A stretch of 30,795 bases of DNA from a virus. The notes under the pieces were generated by a model. That model did no database searches, was not told the DNA's origin, and saw only the letters and a list, made by a program, of their open reading frames with translations. Where the stretch lies: IMG/VR virus record IMGVR_UViG_3300045125_000011, positions 1 to 30,795 of that record; one strand, given 5' to 3'. How positions within the stretch are numbered: the first letter of the stretch is position 1; every line of letters starts with the position of its first letter. This document shows, in pieces, positions 98 through 8,826 of the stretch. The position numbers and the translations under genes were made by a program.

Positions 98-426
98 TCA
101 TTCACCGCCCTTCCCGTACTTCCTATTGCCCTCAGTTGCGCTCTTGCTGTTATGGCACTTGGTACACAATGGCTGCAAGTTGAACTCATCAAAGAACTTC
201 CCGCCGTCCGTTACCGGATGGATATGGTCAACAACCTTAGCCAGCTCCACACGCCCAGCATCACCACACGCCCGGCACAGCGGTTCACGCTCCAGTATCA
301 CCGACCTCAGCATCCGCCATTCCGATGTGTTGTACCTGGTATCGCGGCCATAAGTTGAACCAATCGCCGCCGCCTTCGGTTGCCTCCTGGTTCGTACTTC
401 CTTTTAGTGTGGATAATTTTTGCCAT
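98..426 (-). CDS. HNH endonuclease (frame-broken near the N-terminus)
   Basis: Small HNH nuclease of the type that accompanies large terminases and helps cut DNA at cos during packaging. The intact reading frame (start 313) holds CRAC, then VDHIHPV, then LCTKCHNSK: the paired Cys zinc ligands, the HNH catalytic His and the C-terminal CHN of the fold. It begins inside the domain, because the preceding stretch (YNTSEWRMLR) that normally opens this family continues upstream in frame without a start. A different frame offers ATG at 426 with a basic N-terminus; a one-base deletion in the GCGGCGGCG run near 363-372 would join the two. The exact start is therefore uncertain. Being the last minus-strand gene, it would precede TerS on a circular map. 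Confidence 0.75.
408..416 (-). promoter_or_regulatory. Perfect DnaA box TTATCCACA
   Basis: The minus strand carries the consensus DnaA-binding 9-mer TTATCCACA, overlapping the 5' part of the HNH gene. A second perfect copy lies at 863-871 and the iterons of 549-738 sit between them. The phage also encodes a protein with a DnaA domain IV (8138-8542). Confidence 0.45.
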
Positions 427-668
427 ACTTTTCTTTTGTTTTATCCTTTGCTTTGCTTATCATACGCGCACGCACACGCCTGCACGCACAATATCTTTCC
501 CTTTATATATGTAATACATTTCTTTTTTTATTTCCTTTAGCAACAAAAATCGGTACATCGGTACTCGGGCCACGTCCCCGTAGGGCCCAATCGCATTTAC
601 AATCGGGCACAATCGGGCACATCGGTACATCATTTCTTAAAAACATCTTAAAGGTCATAAACATTTAC
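427..668. other. Gene-poor AT-rich region, candidate replication origin
   Basis: A 242-base stretch between the primase stop and the HNH gene with no convincing gene. It has AT-rich flanks (about 480-545 and 635-700), a GC-rich centre (565-620) and short repeats. Two perfect DnaA boxes lie just outside, at 408-416 and 863-871. Very short minus-strand ORFs exist (for example a 19-codon ORF starting near 461), but none has a recognisable product. The arrangement next to the primase-helicase gene fits a replication origin; this is inference. Confidence 0.4.
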
Positions 669-738
669 TTATGATTTAGTGAATATGTATCCTTTATTTT
701 TATCCTTCCTAACCTTGGCCACATTAAATCGGTACATC
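549..738. repeat. Iteron-like short repeats
   Basis: The 11-mer ATCGGTACATC (minus strand GATGTACCGAT) occurs exactly three times, at 549-559, 621-631 and 728-738. Two tandem copies of AATCGGGCAC fill 601-610 and 611-620, directly abutting the second 11-mer, so three related units stand at 10-base spacing. The copy at 728-738 falls within the reconstructed 3' end of the primase gene. Repeats at helical spacing beside a replication gene suggest initiator or repressor binding sites. Confidence 0.5.
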
Positions 739-3147
739 GCTGCACCGGTTAGCACCGATTTTGCAAACTTTTTCTGCTCGTGTCCCGATCATCTACGGTG
801 TCCTCCACGCGGAATTCGTCCCACATTTCAGAGAATTTGTAAAATTCCTCCTTCATTAATCCTGTGGATAAAGTCGGCCCACCACTCCGCGAAGTCCACA
901 CCACATTCCACCCTTAACCGCTTCTTCAGCAGGGTTTCGCTGCTTTCCTGATAGTTGACACCCTTTGCGAGGTAAATCTCCACGCAATGCAACATGAAGT
1001 TGTAAAAGCGATTCCATTCGTCGCTGTCCCATTCGTTAAACAACATGTGACCAAAGTGCGCTTCAGGCGTCCTGTCTTTGCCAAAGAATGAACCAAATTC
1101 CAACATTCGCACGCGCCGAGCTCCGTGGTTCCCCTGAACGTTTACAGTATAGTTGGTCGAAAACCCGAACTTGGGCGCCCGCTTGTAATCCAAGTACACC
1201 TCTGGCTGGTTCTTCTTCTCTATGGTTACGCCTTCCGTTATCATGGAATAAAATCCCTCAAAGTCCATGTACTTCCGGCAATCTTCAACAAGCACCATCT
1301 GGGTATCCAATTCCACCCGCTGCATGGCAAACGACTTATCCATCTTAAAATTCTTCCCATCCAGAACCACCGTTCTTATTACATGACCAATAGCTTTAAA
1401 AACAACCCTTTACCAGTTCCCCGCCCTGATCTTCATCCTCCGTTTCTTCGCACAATACCACCGCCATACTCCGGGCCGGATGCTTATAACCGTGCAACAT
1501 ATACCCAATCAGCTGCATCGCATATTCCGTCCGCGCTGCATCATCAGCGCATACTGCCTTCACGAACTTGTAAAACACCGAATCAATATAACTAAACATC
1601 ACATTCGCGTCAGGGTCAAAACGATGGGGGATAATGTGTCGCTCCCAGATATGCCCCGGCGCTTCGTTATAGGGTATCATGCGCATCTCATCACCTTTAC
1701 GAACAACCGCCACCCGTTCTTAAAAGGGAAGTATGCCGTATCCACCTCATGAGCCAGCGCCGTCACATCGTGCCGCCCCAAATGTTCTATCATCAAGCCC
1801 CCGAACAACCGCCCCGTACTCTCCATAAACGCCCGTTCAATATCCGCCCGTAATACCTCACCCACCACTTCCGGCAATTCCGAAAGATAGCCGTTCACCG
1901 CTTTAATCATCATCTCGGTTGTTGCCTCGCGCATCACACGACTATTGACCTGGATGATGCGATACTCCTTTCCGTGGTCGCCATCCACCCAGTACAATCC
2001 AAAACCCTCCGACACATGTAGCCACCTATACAGCGCGTGCACATCAATGCGCACCTTTCCTTTGTCCGAAACAGTCCAAAACCCCGCCCCTGCATCCGCC
2101 CCGGCAATGGCATCACTCACAACCGCCTGCGCTGCCGCTGCATCCATGCCTGCTTTTTGTTGCACATGGCGCAACACGTCCAGCCCATCCAGTCCATCTT
2201 GTATCAGCTCCTGGCAATCTTCACTGCCCGATCGCGTTTCTCACTTCGCTTCTCGCCATACCCATCGTCCTGAAGCAGCCGGTAAGTTCGTTTCCAATCT
2301 CCACCTCCCACCAATACGTTAAACACCGCCGCCGGGGAATATCCCTTGCCAGCTTCAAACTCCGTGGATGTGGTGAACACGGAAAACAGGTTCAACTCCC
2401 GGTGATAGTCGCCGCTGGTCTTCGCGTCCGTGTTGCCGGGCCGTTTAAACACCACCTTCGGCCCTACCTCATACACCACCTGCCAACCGTGTTCCTGCAG
2501 AAGTTGCAACATATCATTCTACCCCCGACTCGTTGTAATGGTCAATAGGTGACTTCCTAAAATGTCCGGTATTTCCAAACTGTTCCACCTTCGCCCGCAC
2601 CGGCTCCAGATATTCATTGAACGACCGACACACTGCCAGCAACACCTCCCGCTCCGCTTCGGTCAATTCGCCAATCTCCCCGAAAGCACCCGATACCCCG
2701 GCGTAGGAGGGGCAGCCACATAGCCACCCTCCCCCTTGTTTCAATAAGCACCCGCACCTTATCCGAAGGGTTTCCGTTTGCTTCCGCTTCTGTCGTTGGC
2801 CGTTGCGCCAACTTCATGTTCCCGGCAATGGTTGCGCACCTATAATACAGGTGCCACCCGCCCGACCTCGTTTCCACAACCTGCAAGCGCTCGCGTATCG
2901 CCTCTGGTATGGCATCCATCAGGCCCGCGCGAACTTTGCCCTCGTGGTCGTATTTCAAGTCGCAGTCTATCACCTCAAGATTGCCGCTAACCGCCCCGCA
3001 GATGATTGCCTCGCCATGCGCGTTCGGATGCCGCCGCTGCTGTTCCAATTCCGCCGCCGTTACCTGCCGCTGTTGATAGGCTTTCCACGGCAGCACCGCG
3101 CGTTTGTTGGAATCGATTATGATTCGATTAAGATGTGTGTTTTCCAT
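669..3147 (-). CDS. Primase-polymerase / superfamily 3 helicase fusion (replicative primase-helicase)
   Basis: Large replication protein of about 826 residues, broken into some eight frame segments. The N-terminal part (3147 to about 2745) has the PrimPol domain, with IICGAVSGNLEVIDCDLKYD carrying the catalytic acidic pair and GGWHLYY carrying a His. The middle (2512-2204) has the RPGNTDAKTSGDY and VFTTSTEFE motifs common in phage bifunctional primases. The C-terminal part is an SF3 helicase: Walker A is readable as GGxTGKGLVFKAIG only if single bases are restored in the 1395-1425 stretch, then VLVEDCRKY (Walker B) and FGFSTNY (motif C). The frame continues after the apparent stop at 828 to FTKS and a stop at 669-671. 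ATG at 3147 was chosen because it opens a typical N-terminus and lies 10 bases after the methyltransferase stop. It would unwind and prime the phage genome. Confidence 0.8.
863..871 (-). promoter_or_regulatory. Perfect DnaA box TTATCCACA inside the primase gene
   Basis: Minus strand TTATCCACA, the second exact copy within 460 bases. It is embedded in the helicase C-terminal coding sequence, so coding constraint may explain it. With the copy at 408-416 it brackets the iterons. Confidence 0.35.
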
Positions 3148-3798: not shown

Positions 3799-4070
3799 AA
3801 CCCCTTCACCCCCTCCGCATTATCCATAACCACTACCTCCGCGCCCTTGTGCCTCATCATCTTATGGCGAATTACCTGCACCCCGGACAACTGCCCGCCG
3901 GGCCGCTTCACCTCGATAAACACGACGCGCCCGCCCTTGATTGCCAATAGGTCAGGCCAGCCGTTTGTTGATGTGCTTTGCAGCTTCGTTACCATCCAGT
4001 CCGCCTCCTTCAGCGCCTTTACAACGCGCCGCTGTACCATTGCTTCGGTGATTTCCTTTATCTTCTTCAT
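3795..4070 (-). CDS. VRR-NUC domain nuclease
   Basis: Small intact protein of 91 residues matching the VRR-NUC fold, a PD-(D/E)XK variant found alone in many phages and in the FAN1 nucleases. The signature is NGWPDLLAIKGGRVVFIEVK, where D and the E-V-K triplet form the metal site, followed by RPGGQLSGVQ. It probably acts on branched or flapped DNA during replication or recombination, consistent with its place between a helicase and a methyltransferase. ATGA overlap with the methyltransferase. Its leader reads TCTAACACAC directly before ATG, with no Shine-Dalgarno sequence. Confidence 0.85.
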   Translation of the reverse strand: MKKIKEITEAMVQRRVVKALKEADWMVTKLQSTSTNGWPDLLAIKGGRVVFIEVKRPGGQLSGVQVIRHKMMRHKGAEVVVMDNAEGVKGL

Positions 4071-4075
4071 GTGTG

Positions 4076-4330
4076 TTAGAATAATGTTTTTTTCTTGGGC
4101 CGTAATCTATTCTGATTCAACTTATGATGTTCGTACCATTTATATAGAAGCTCACCCGCTTTATCCCAGCGGTATATCTGCTTCCACGGGCTGAGCAGAT
4201 AAGCTTCATGAAAGCCGCAACTGTTCGCCTTCACGTTGATGCGCTGGTTGATATTCAGGTCGTAGTACCGCGTGTGCTTCACTACCGGCTTTGGAAACAA
4301 GTCCAGACTAATTTGTGATTTGTCTTTCAT
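4076..4330 (-). CDS. Hypothetical protein, 84 aa
   Basis: Small basic, Tyr/Trp-rich soluble protein (KDKSQISLDLFPKP at the start, WYEHHKLNQNRLRPKKK at the end). I do not recognise a family. It sits between the helicase and the VRR-NUC nuclease, 7 bases after the helicase stop, and so belongs to the replication operon. An in-frame TTG lies 6 bases upstream, but ATG at 4330 is the better start. The basic C-terminal tail would allow DNA or RNA binding; that is only a guess. Confidence 0.65.
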   Translation of the reverse strand: MKDKSQISLDLFPKPVVKHTRYYDLNINQRINVKANSCGFHEAYLLSPWKQIYRWDKAGELLYKWYEHHKLNQNRLRPKKKTLF

Positions 4331-7676: not shown

Positions 7677-8141
7677 TTATAATTTTTGTTTAAGTTCCTG
7701 AATCTTCGCCTCGTACCACTTGGCTTTTTGAATGTCTTGGATGATGCTCGCGCCCTTTTTCAACCCGGCCCGCATCCGATACTTAAACGAATTGATCTTG
7801 CAAAAATCAATGTAAGCCTCCACGCCGAATACGCGAATCATCATCTCAGACACCTCTATGTCGTGCGCCATGTAATGCTTGGGATTTACCACGTCATCCT
7901 CGTGCATGGCCATGTTGTCCCGAAATTCCTCTACTGATTTACTCAAAGCCTCTACCCCGGTCAATGTTGGCGCAAAATGCGTGATGTTCCCGCGATGGTC
8001 AAGCATCACGCGAATGTCTGCATCCTGTGCCGGCCGCCATCCGTGCAAGGGCATGGGCAATGTTACATCGTTAACCGTTGCTGTGTTGGTGCGCACGTCG
8101 TACCGCGCCACCTGCCATTGTTCATATCGTAATCCGCTCAT
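7677..8141 (-). CDS. DUF3310 domain protein
   Basis: 154 residues. The C-terminal half carries the DUF3310 signature: VVNPKHYMAHDIEVSEMM, then VEAYIDFCKINSFKYRMRAG and a WYEAKI helix. This domain occurs widely in phage replication regions; it has been called nucleotide-kinase-like, but its biochemical role is not settled. The N-terminal 70 residues (YDVRTNTATVNDVTLPMP) form a separate, probably beta-rich part I do not recognise. The start overlaps the stop of the DnaA-like gene (8138-8141), giving a coupled pair. Confidence 0.75.
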   Translation of the reverse strand: MSGLRYEQWQVARYDVRTNTATVNDVTLPMPLHGWRPAQDADIRVMLDHRGNITHFAPTLTGVEALSKSVEEFRDNMAMHEDDVVNPKHYMAHDIEVSEMMIRVFGVEAYIDFCKINSFKYRMRAGLKKGASIIQDIQKAKWYEAKIQELKQKL

Positions 8142-8542
8142 AAAAATCCTTGGTTTTCGAATTGTCCCTGCTTAATATCCTTCTTTCCGAAAATCACCTG
8201 CACCGCGCCGTTTGCATGGTATCCGCTGGTGATTATTTCGCAAACTTTCTCGAGCTGCTTTACCTCGAGGTCAAATGTACGGTTAAACATCCTGTCATTC
8301 GTTACCCTGTTATAAGCGTGAATCATACTCGAATGATCGCGGTCGCAATACATGGCAAGTTCTGGATATGATAGCTTGTAAAACTCACGTGCCAAGAAGA
8401 TAAACACATGACGCGCTTTTACGGTACCTGCCACCCTCGACCGGTTCACATGGAAATCATTACCCACTCCGTAGCCAATTGCCACTTCGCGCCGTATCAG
8501 TTCAAGTTCTGCCGGGAAATCCTGCATGCGCTTCAACTTCAT
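8138..8542 (-). CDS. DnaA domain IV-like DNA-binding protein
   Basis: 134 residues from the ATG at 8542, which overlaps the preceding stop (ATGA) and is preceded by AGAAAGGAAAATGAA. The core KARHVFIFLAREFYKLSYPELA followed by CDRDHSSMIHAYNRV is a clear match to the helix-turn-helix and signature loop (RDHST-V-xHA) by which DnaA domain IV reads the DnaA box. There is no AAA+ domain. Such proteins may act as phage initiators or as competitors of host DnaA. The perfect DnaA boxes at 408-416 and 863-871 are obvious candidate targets. Confidence 0.8.
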   Translation of the reverse strand: MKLKRMQDFPAELELIRREVAIGYGVGNDFHVNRSRVAGTVKARHVFIFLAREFYKLSYPELAMYCDRDHSSMIHAYNRVTNDRMFNRTFDLEVKQLEKVCEIITSGYHANGAVQVIFGKKDIKQGQFENQGFL

Positions 8543-8826
8543 TTCATTTTCCTTTCTCTGATAAAGCGCCCTGGTACCCACTTGTCCTCGTGTCCGTGGA
8601 GTTGATACCACCAGCCTTTGCAGTTGTACTTCCACGCGCTGACGGTGGTCAGTTTGCCGCGATAAATCACCGCTGTACCGATTGGCATAAGCCCCTGCCT
8701 ATGTCGGCAAAATAGCCGCTTCAAACCACGCCGTCCACGTATCCAGTACGGCTCCAGCAGCACCATAGCCGTAAAAGTAACGGATATGATAAATATCACC
8801 GCAAATACTCGCTCTTCGTAGTTCAT
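8539..8826 (-). CDS. Small membrane protein with N-terminal anchor
   Basis: 95 residues. Residues about 7-28 (VFAVIFIISVTFTAMVLL) form a membrane segment. The rest is basic and aromatic (CKGWWYQLHGHEDKWVPGRFIRERKMK), looking like a small SH3-like beta domain on the cytoplasmic side. It overlaps both neighbours by four bases (ATGA). I do not recognise a family. Confidence 0.65.
   Translation of the reverse strand: MNYEERVFAVIFIISVTFTAMVLLEPYWIRGRRGLKRLFCRHRQGLMPIGTAVIYRGKLTTVSAWKYNCKGWWYQLHGHEDKWVPGRFIRERKMK

Follow-up and report, generated by a model that had tools for sequence, protein, structure and literature searches.

Several replicons place their origin of replication, or a candidate origin, directly downstream of the gene for an initiator helicase, as seen in SaPI/PICI elements, SCCmec with its Cch2 protein, and the plasmid pRN1 (PMC6092414, PMC7581432, PMC4234260). 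In SaPI Rep and Cch2, the origin is recognized by the C-terminal domain, and the isolated C-terminal domain of SCCmec Cch2 binds direct repeats directly downstream of its own gene (PMC7581432). The phage P4 alpha protein unites a primase, a helicase, and a C-terminal winged helix that binds the origin repeats; ORF904 of the Sulfolobus plasmid pRN1 joins a PrimPol, an SF3 helicase, and a winged helix, with the origin just downstream; and Bordetella phage BIP-1 has a candidate origin just downstream of such a gene (PMC4234260). The NrS-1 polymerase recognizes an 8-nt sequence that occurs only twice in its genome (PMC7102993). In the open-licence literature, we found no description of a phage origin type that combines a phage PrimPol with iterons.

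The DNA analyzed here, referred to as the window, is the whole 30,795-nt stretch of the IMG/VR virus record IMGVR_UViG_3300045125_000011. Its region from 489 to 738, on the minus strand, is probably a replication origin bound by the winged helix of the primase-helicase encoded upstream. How would such an origin work? We infer that the C-terminal winged helix of the primase-helicase binds short direct iterons, that the bound helicase assembles as rings, that these rings melt the adjacent AT-rich zone (489-548), and that the PrimPol domain then primes synthesis. The two TTATCCACA motifs would take no part. A scan with a helicase profile returned 80 loci, and the comparison of layouts covers 38 non-redundant gaps (37 relatives and the window). 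The features of the window are as follows.

98 to 424, minus strand: HNH endonuclease gene (tblastn, Pfam HNH), ATG at 424-422, apparent frame change at ~385
408 to 416, minus strand: "DnaA box" 1, codons ATT ATC CAC ACT (I-I-H-T) of the HNH gene
465 to 488: alternating GC/GT stretch, common to the window and its relative L001, in place of the inverted iteron pair of other relatives
489 to 548: AT-rich zone, 78% AT versus a contig mean of 50%, proposed melting region
549 to 564, minus strand: tandem iteron pair GTACCGATGTACCGAT, then a T-tract, aligning with the pair and T-tract of all relatives
567 to 588: central inverted repeat, GGGCC-12 nt-GGCCC (gap alignment)
601 to 620, minus strand: direct iterons 2 and 3, two tandem 10-bp units GTGCCCGATT (repeat search and gap alignment)
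621 to 628, minus strand: direct iteron 1, GTACCGAT (repeat search and gap alignment)
669 to 3147, minus strand: PrimPol and SF3 (DUF5906-type) helicase gene with C-terminal winged helix, proposed initiator (tblastn)
728 to 735, minus strand: embedded iteron GTACCGAT, coding M-Y-R-F, within the stretch of the helicase gene that encodes the winged helix
863 to 871, minus strand: "DnaA box" 2, codons TTT ATC CAC AGG (F-I-H-R) of the helicase gene
8138 to 8542, minus strand: stand-alone DnaA domain IV protein, 135 aa (Pfam Bac_DnaA_C, 1.2e-11)

L001 (contig IMGVR_UViG_3300045999_003382) is the closest relative found and has an unbroken gene for an 829-aa PrimPol-helicase with Pfam Prim-Pol and DUF5906 domains. 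The last 400 residues of this protein were modelled from 30 sequences (mean pLDDT 84), and the C-terminus is confidently predicted as helix-helix-strand-strand, a winged helix. By fold, the model matches ASFV PrimPol, SaPI5 Rep (7ola), poxvirus E5, and the NrS-1 CTR (6k9e) at TM scores of ~0.4-0.5. The SaPI5 Rep match has an E-value of 2.3e-10 and a TM score of ~0.5 at a sequence identity of only ~15%, and comparison of the helicase profile with solved structures by sequence alone gave no match.

By analogy, the best reading is that the present system would work like the SaPI/PICI rep-ori and phage P4 alpha. As in SaPI/PICI, the putative origin lies immediately 3' of a primase/SF3-type initiator gene, comprises short iterons and an AT-rich region, and is accompanied by an initiator that, judged by the domains and model of the L001 homologue, combines an SF3/D5-type helicase with a C-terminal DNA-binding domain. 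The origin recognition performed in SaPI/PICI by the C-terminal domain would fall here to the helicase winged helix. SaPI/PICI origins have two iteron sets, which many relatives match by means of an inverted pair, while only the first set is recognizable in the window and L001. Unlike SaPI/PICI, the elements here are phages that carry terminase and portal genes and resemble Bacteroidota phages; copies of the locus's own iteron lie within the initiator gene; a central palindrome, TTGATAATCAA, is conserved; and a DnaA domain IV gene often adjoins. The resemblance of these tailed phages is a similarity to Flavobacterium, Cellulophaga, and Bacteroides phages rather than a host assignment. Could the element itself be a PICI satellite, without structural genes and helper-dependent? 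Because the window encodes a terminase large subunit and a portal protein, it is not.

The likeness to P4 alpha lies in the union of primase, helicase, and C-terminal winged helix in one protein and is drawn at the level of domains rather than of sequence. P4 alpha has a bacterial-type (TOPRIM) primase, whereas the primase here is an archaeo-eukaryotic-type Prim-Pol, which places the protein outside the P4 family. The pRN1 and BIP-1 sites are large stem-loops without iterons, whereas iterons are found here. A pRN1-type origin with a ~100-nt stem-loop was considered and rejected: iterons are present, and the predicted fold of the gap has no single dominating 100-nt stem-loop. NrS-1 shares the PrimPol and helicase domains, and the fold matches listed above include its helicase region, but no iteron array is described for it in PMC7102993. 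SCCmec Cch2 differs in having separate primase/polymerase genes and only three 5-nt iterons, and SCCmec is a non-viral element.

Where does the gap between the genes begin and end? The preliminary description had placed its candidate origin in a gene-poor gap, a claim that fails once apparent frame changes are taken into account: positions 669-871 code for the helicase and 408-424 for the HNH protein, in both cases hidden by frame changes. With the L001 helicase homologue as the query, tblastn returns pieces in two frames, the last of which covers residues 583-824 and ends at 675; the true stop is at 669. The L001 protein ends in EFSEWWADFIADIREQQFYSF...FARKEAIK-stop, and the minus strand of the window gives DFAEWWADFIHRIN, two apparent compensating single-base frame changes, and then KFAKSVLTGAAMYRFNVAKVRKDKNKGYIFTKS-stop, ending at 669. 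We infer that the gene starts at the ATG preceding NRIIIDSNKRAV. The HNH gene is likewise recovered in two frames, residues 5-23 in frame -1 (441-385) and residues 24-113 in frame -3 (385-116); the L001 protein starts with MDTYKQQKVMPKIINKKRGYEPGRQPN, for which the window gives MAKIIHTKRKYEPG and then, past the frame change, RQPKAAAIGSTYG. The splitting of genes over frames suggests uncorrected indel errors in the contig. Both the 98-3147 region and many other genes of the window are broken by apparent single-base frame changes. Since the two "boxes" are codons of the flanking genes, the true gap is ~425-668. Frame errors in a contig can thus make ordinary codons pass for convincing DnaA boxes.

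The repeats themselves are as previously claimed, with three exact copies of ATCGGTACATC (549-559, 621-631, and 728-738) and two tandem AATCGGGCAC units (601-610 and 611-620). The core of ATCGGTACATC, ATCGGTAC, is also present at 557-564 and, reversed, at one further site at 8675. In the 240 nt past the helicase stop there are 18 same-strand 8-mer pairs versus a mean of 1.3 in dinucleotide shuffles, none of 200 shuffles reaches 18, and this stretch scores highest of all those scanned along the contig. The array begins 40 nt past the stop in the window and within ~60 nt of it in aligned relatives. As single-stranded DNA, the gap has a predicted fold somewhat more stable than those of shuffled sequences (z = -2.9), in which pairings overlap and do not follow the GGGCC/GGCCC arms exactly.

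Is this layout shared by other phages? More repeated 8-mers than in all 200 shuffles were found in 43 of 51 gaps, the window's included. Across the aligned gaps, iterons lie at ~0, +20, +31, and +42, with the direct iterons ~20 and 11 bp apart. Past these come, in order, the central inverted repeat, a tandem pair with 9-bp spacing that runs into a T-tract, and an AT-rich zone (73% AT versus a locus mean of 61%), to which most relatives add an inverted pair ~90 bp further on. The tandem pair is spaced by 8 bp in the window versus 9 bp in most relatives, and the inverted pair beyond the AT-rich zone is not recognizable in the gap alignment for the window or L001. The centre of the array is the palindrome TTGATAATCAA, in place of which L001, L078-L080, and the window have a GC-rich inverted repeat; in the gap alignment, that of the window occupies the TTGATAATCAA position of most relatives. 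The iteron sequence varies by lineage, with about eleven types: GGTACGCGAT, GTACACGAT, TTAACATCAT, TGTAGTCCAT, TGTAATCGAT, TGTAGCGGAT, GTTGCGCGAT, TGTACACGAA, GGTACCGAT, TGGACGTGG, and TGACACGG. The repeats of the preliminary description are conserved in their layout, while the iteron letters differ and the DnaA boxes are absent from relatives.

Two further observations concern the relatives. The TTGATAATCAA palindrome sits at a fixed place between iterons in most of them (for example, L083, L096, and L114). In L085, L092, L100, L111, and L114, many G/T repeats of the form GGGGTTTTTGG are found ~230-380 nt past the helicase stop, between the putative origin and the DnaA domain IV gene.

The array extends into the helicase gene. 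An exact copy of the locus's own iteron is present in the final ~130 nt of the helicase ORF in 22 of the 38 non-redundant loci, while each of the preceding six bins contains such a copy in 0-1 loci. Under synonymous recoding of the C-termini, 2.6 loci are expected, and none of 20,000 draws gave as many as 22. As the loci are related, neither these 22 nor the other counts over loci represent independent events, although the 22 comprise at least six different iteron sequences. The embedded copy is inverted in most relatives and codes for the start of the wing (I-A-Y, I-V-Y, M-D-Y, or I-D-Y); in the window, it is an exact match in direct orientation, 66 nt before the end of the stop, and corresponds to the third copy of the preliminary description.

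Do the iterons and the winged helix change together? The helicases of the sister loci L078 and L080 differ at 35 of ~840-850 aligned residues, mostly at the N-terminus, at residues ~160-200, and in the wing (FGLALSIAKSGAKRV versus FGWSAQVGKNGSKRV). The iterons change along with the wing, from GGACGTGG to GACACGG, and 22 of 67 site bases are changed versus 22 of 129 others (p = 0.018). One recombined block could account for this change. Over 34 loci, a partial Mantel test of iteron distance against winged-helix distance gave a partial r of 0.37 given the helicase core, and the same test with non-site gap sequence gave an equal 0.36, which does not single out the iterons. Given a control as strong as the iterons, we do not use the Mantel result in support of co-evolution; moreover, covariation of protein and iterons is partly built in because the embedded iterons are themselves winged-helix codons. 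Since the distance test fails to separate the iterons from neighbouring non-site DNA, the helicase remains the putative binder.

What else might bind this region? The window does encode the stand-alone DnaA domain IV protein that was claimed for it: the 8138-8542 product scores 44.9 bits to Bac_DnaA_C (cut-off 31.5), is without an AAA+ domain, and has a predicted structure matching the DnaA domain IV-DNA complexes 3pvp and 1j1v. Together with the two exact TTATCCACA boxes, 455 bp apart, this protein favours a scheme in which it or host DnaA binds the boxes and opens the DNA between them, which we nevertheless regard as very improbable. The motif occurs exactly at 408-416 and 863-871 on the minus strand and nowhere else in the window, but both sites are codons of conserved proteins; neither is present in L001, and no strict DnaA box occurs in 13 kb of related sequence (50 gaps of 260 nt), so we consider them a coincidence. 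The occurrence of two exact boxes, previously judged unlikely by chance, is mildly unusual by that description's own figure (~0.23 expected), and a search tolerating one mismatch gives 6 boxes in the window versus 5.9 expected. The spacers between putative origin and DnaA domain IV gene in relatives total 6.9 kb and have 2 strict boxes, confined to L141 and L144, and a relaxed motif likewise gives 2, versus 1.1 expected; there is no enrichment of DnaA boxes around the putative origin. An oriC-type origin, which requires a conserved box cluster, was rejected on the same grounds. Detrended cumulative GC skew, proposed as a check, shows no turning point at 408-871; it is lowest near 9.6 kb and highest near 30.5 kb, and it gives the proposed origin no support. 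Of the original candidate, the iterons beside the primase gene stand after comparison with 37 related loci, and the DnaA-box half does not. Alternatively, the site may be an origin whose iterons are bound by another protein, such as the DnaA domain IV protein, with the helicase loaded secondarily. Directly after the array, 35 relatives have a gene of the same family as the 8138-8542 protein (membership by an HMM built from hand-picked members; Bac_DnaA_C was found in 4 of 4 relatives checked, with L148 below the curated cut-off), and the DHTTV-type signature of DnaA domain IV is retained. A sequence scan found no close viral relatives of the window's protein. We regard this alternative binder as unlikely. 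An HNH gene comes next in the lineages of the window, L001, and L078-L080; the iterons are unlike DnaA boxes; and the array is invariably located past the helicase gene, into whose 3' end it extends. In Cch2 and SaPI Rep, moreover, arrays of this kind are bound by the C-terminal domain of the helicase itself (PMC7581432). As the DnaA domain IV gene adjoins the origin in most relatives, its product may take part, though not via the TTATCCACA boxes here.

The array might also be a regulatory site, for autorepression of the replication genes or termination of transcription, rather than an origin. Autoregulatory iterons are known in plasmids, the array lies between two co-directional genes, and its central inverted repeat and somewhat stable gap fold would suit such a function. 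We find this quite improbable: the array is 3' rather than 5' of the helicase gene, and its 4-8 copies, fixed geometry, AT-rich zone, and inverted sets exceed the needs of an operator. Furthermore, where such an arrangement is known from other elements, it is an origin (PMC6092414, PMC4234260). Least credible is a packaging (cos/pac) site, suggested by the HNH and terminase genes that come next and by contig ends near the array in the window and L001, since DnaA domain IV, not HNH or terminase, follows the array in most relatives and the conserved GACCCGGTAGGGGGTGA at 25-41 is a better cos candidate. The reading that we prefer is an origin served by the primase-helicase itself.

More tentatively, it is possible that these loci represent an origin type widespread among phages. 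Its initiator helicase would read a fast-changing iteron code, one of the sites would lie in the sequence coding for the helicase's own DNA-binding domain, and the DnaA domain IV protein would act as a second factor. If true, the presence of a site in the helicase's own codons would make initiator and origin physically one exchangeable specificity unit. Among cultured phages, the Bacteroides thetaiotaomicron phage BT-TP2 (L160, PQ571279) has 11 GTTAC/GTAAC copies at 3971-4221, where 1.5 are expected, in an unannotated noncoding stretch one gene past its DUF5906 helicase gene; the two leftmost copies are inverted and set off by an AT-rich stretch. From its sequence, this array is a probable origin, and BT-TP2 is a possible laboratory model. 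No clear array was found next to the helicase gene in Leef_1 (L161), MW202828 (L162), or MT835542 (L163).

Finally, the contigs of the window and L001 end at about the same place. The 17-bp GACCCGGTAGGGGGTGA is found on the minus strand at 25-41 of the window and at 7325-7341 of L001, between the HNH and small terminase genes, and its position near the contig end makes it a candidate cos/packaging element. The two ends of the L001/L007 contig, at the end of L001 (contig 30218) and the start of L007, have a short end repeat, GCGCGTGGGCC, in common.
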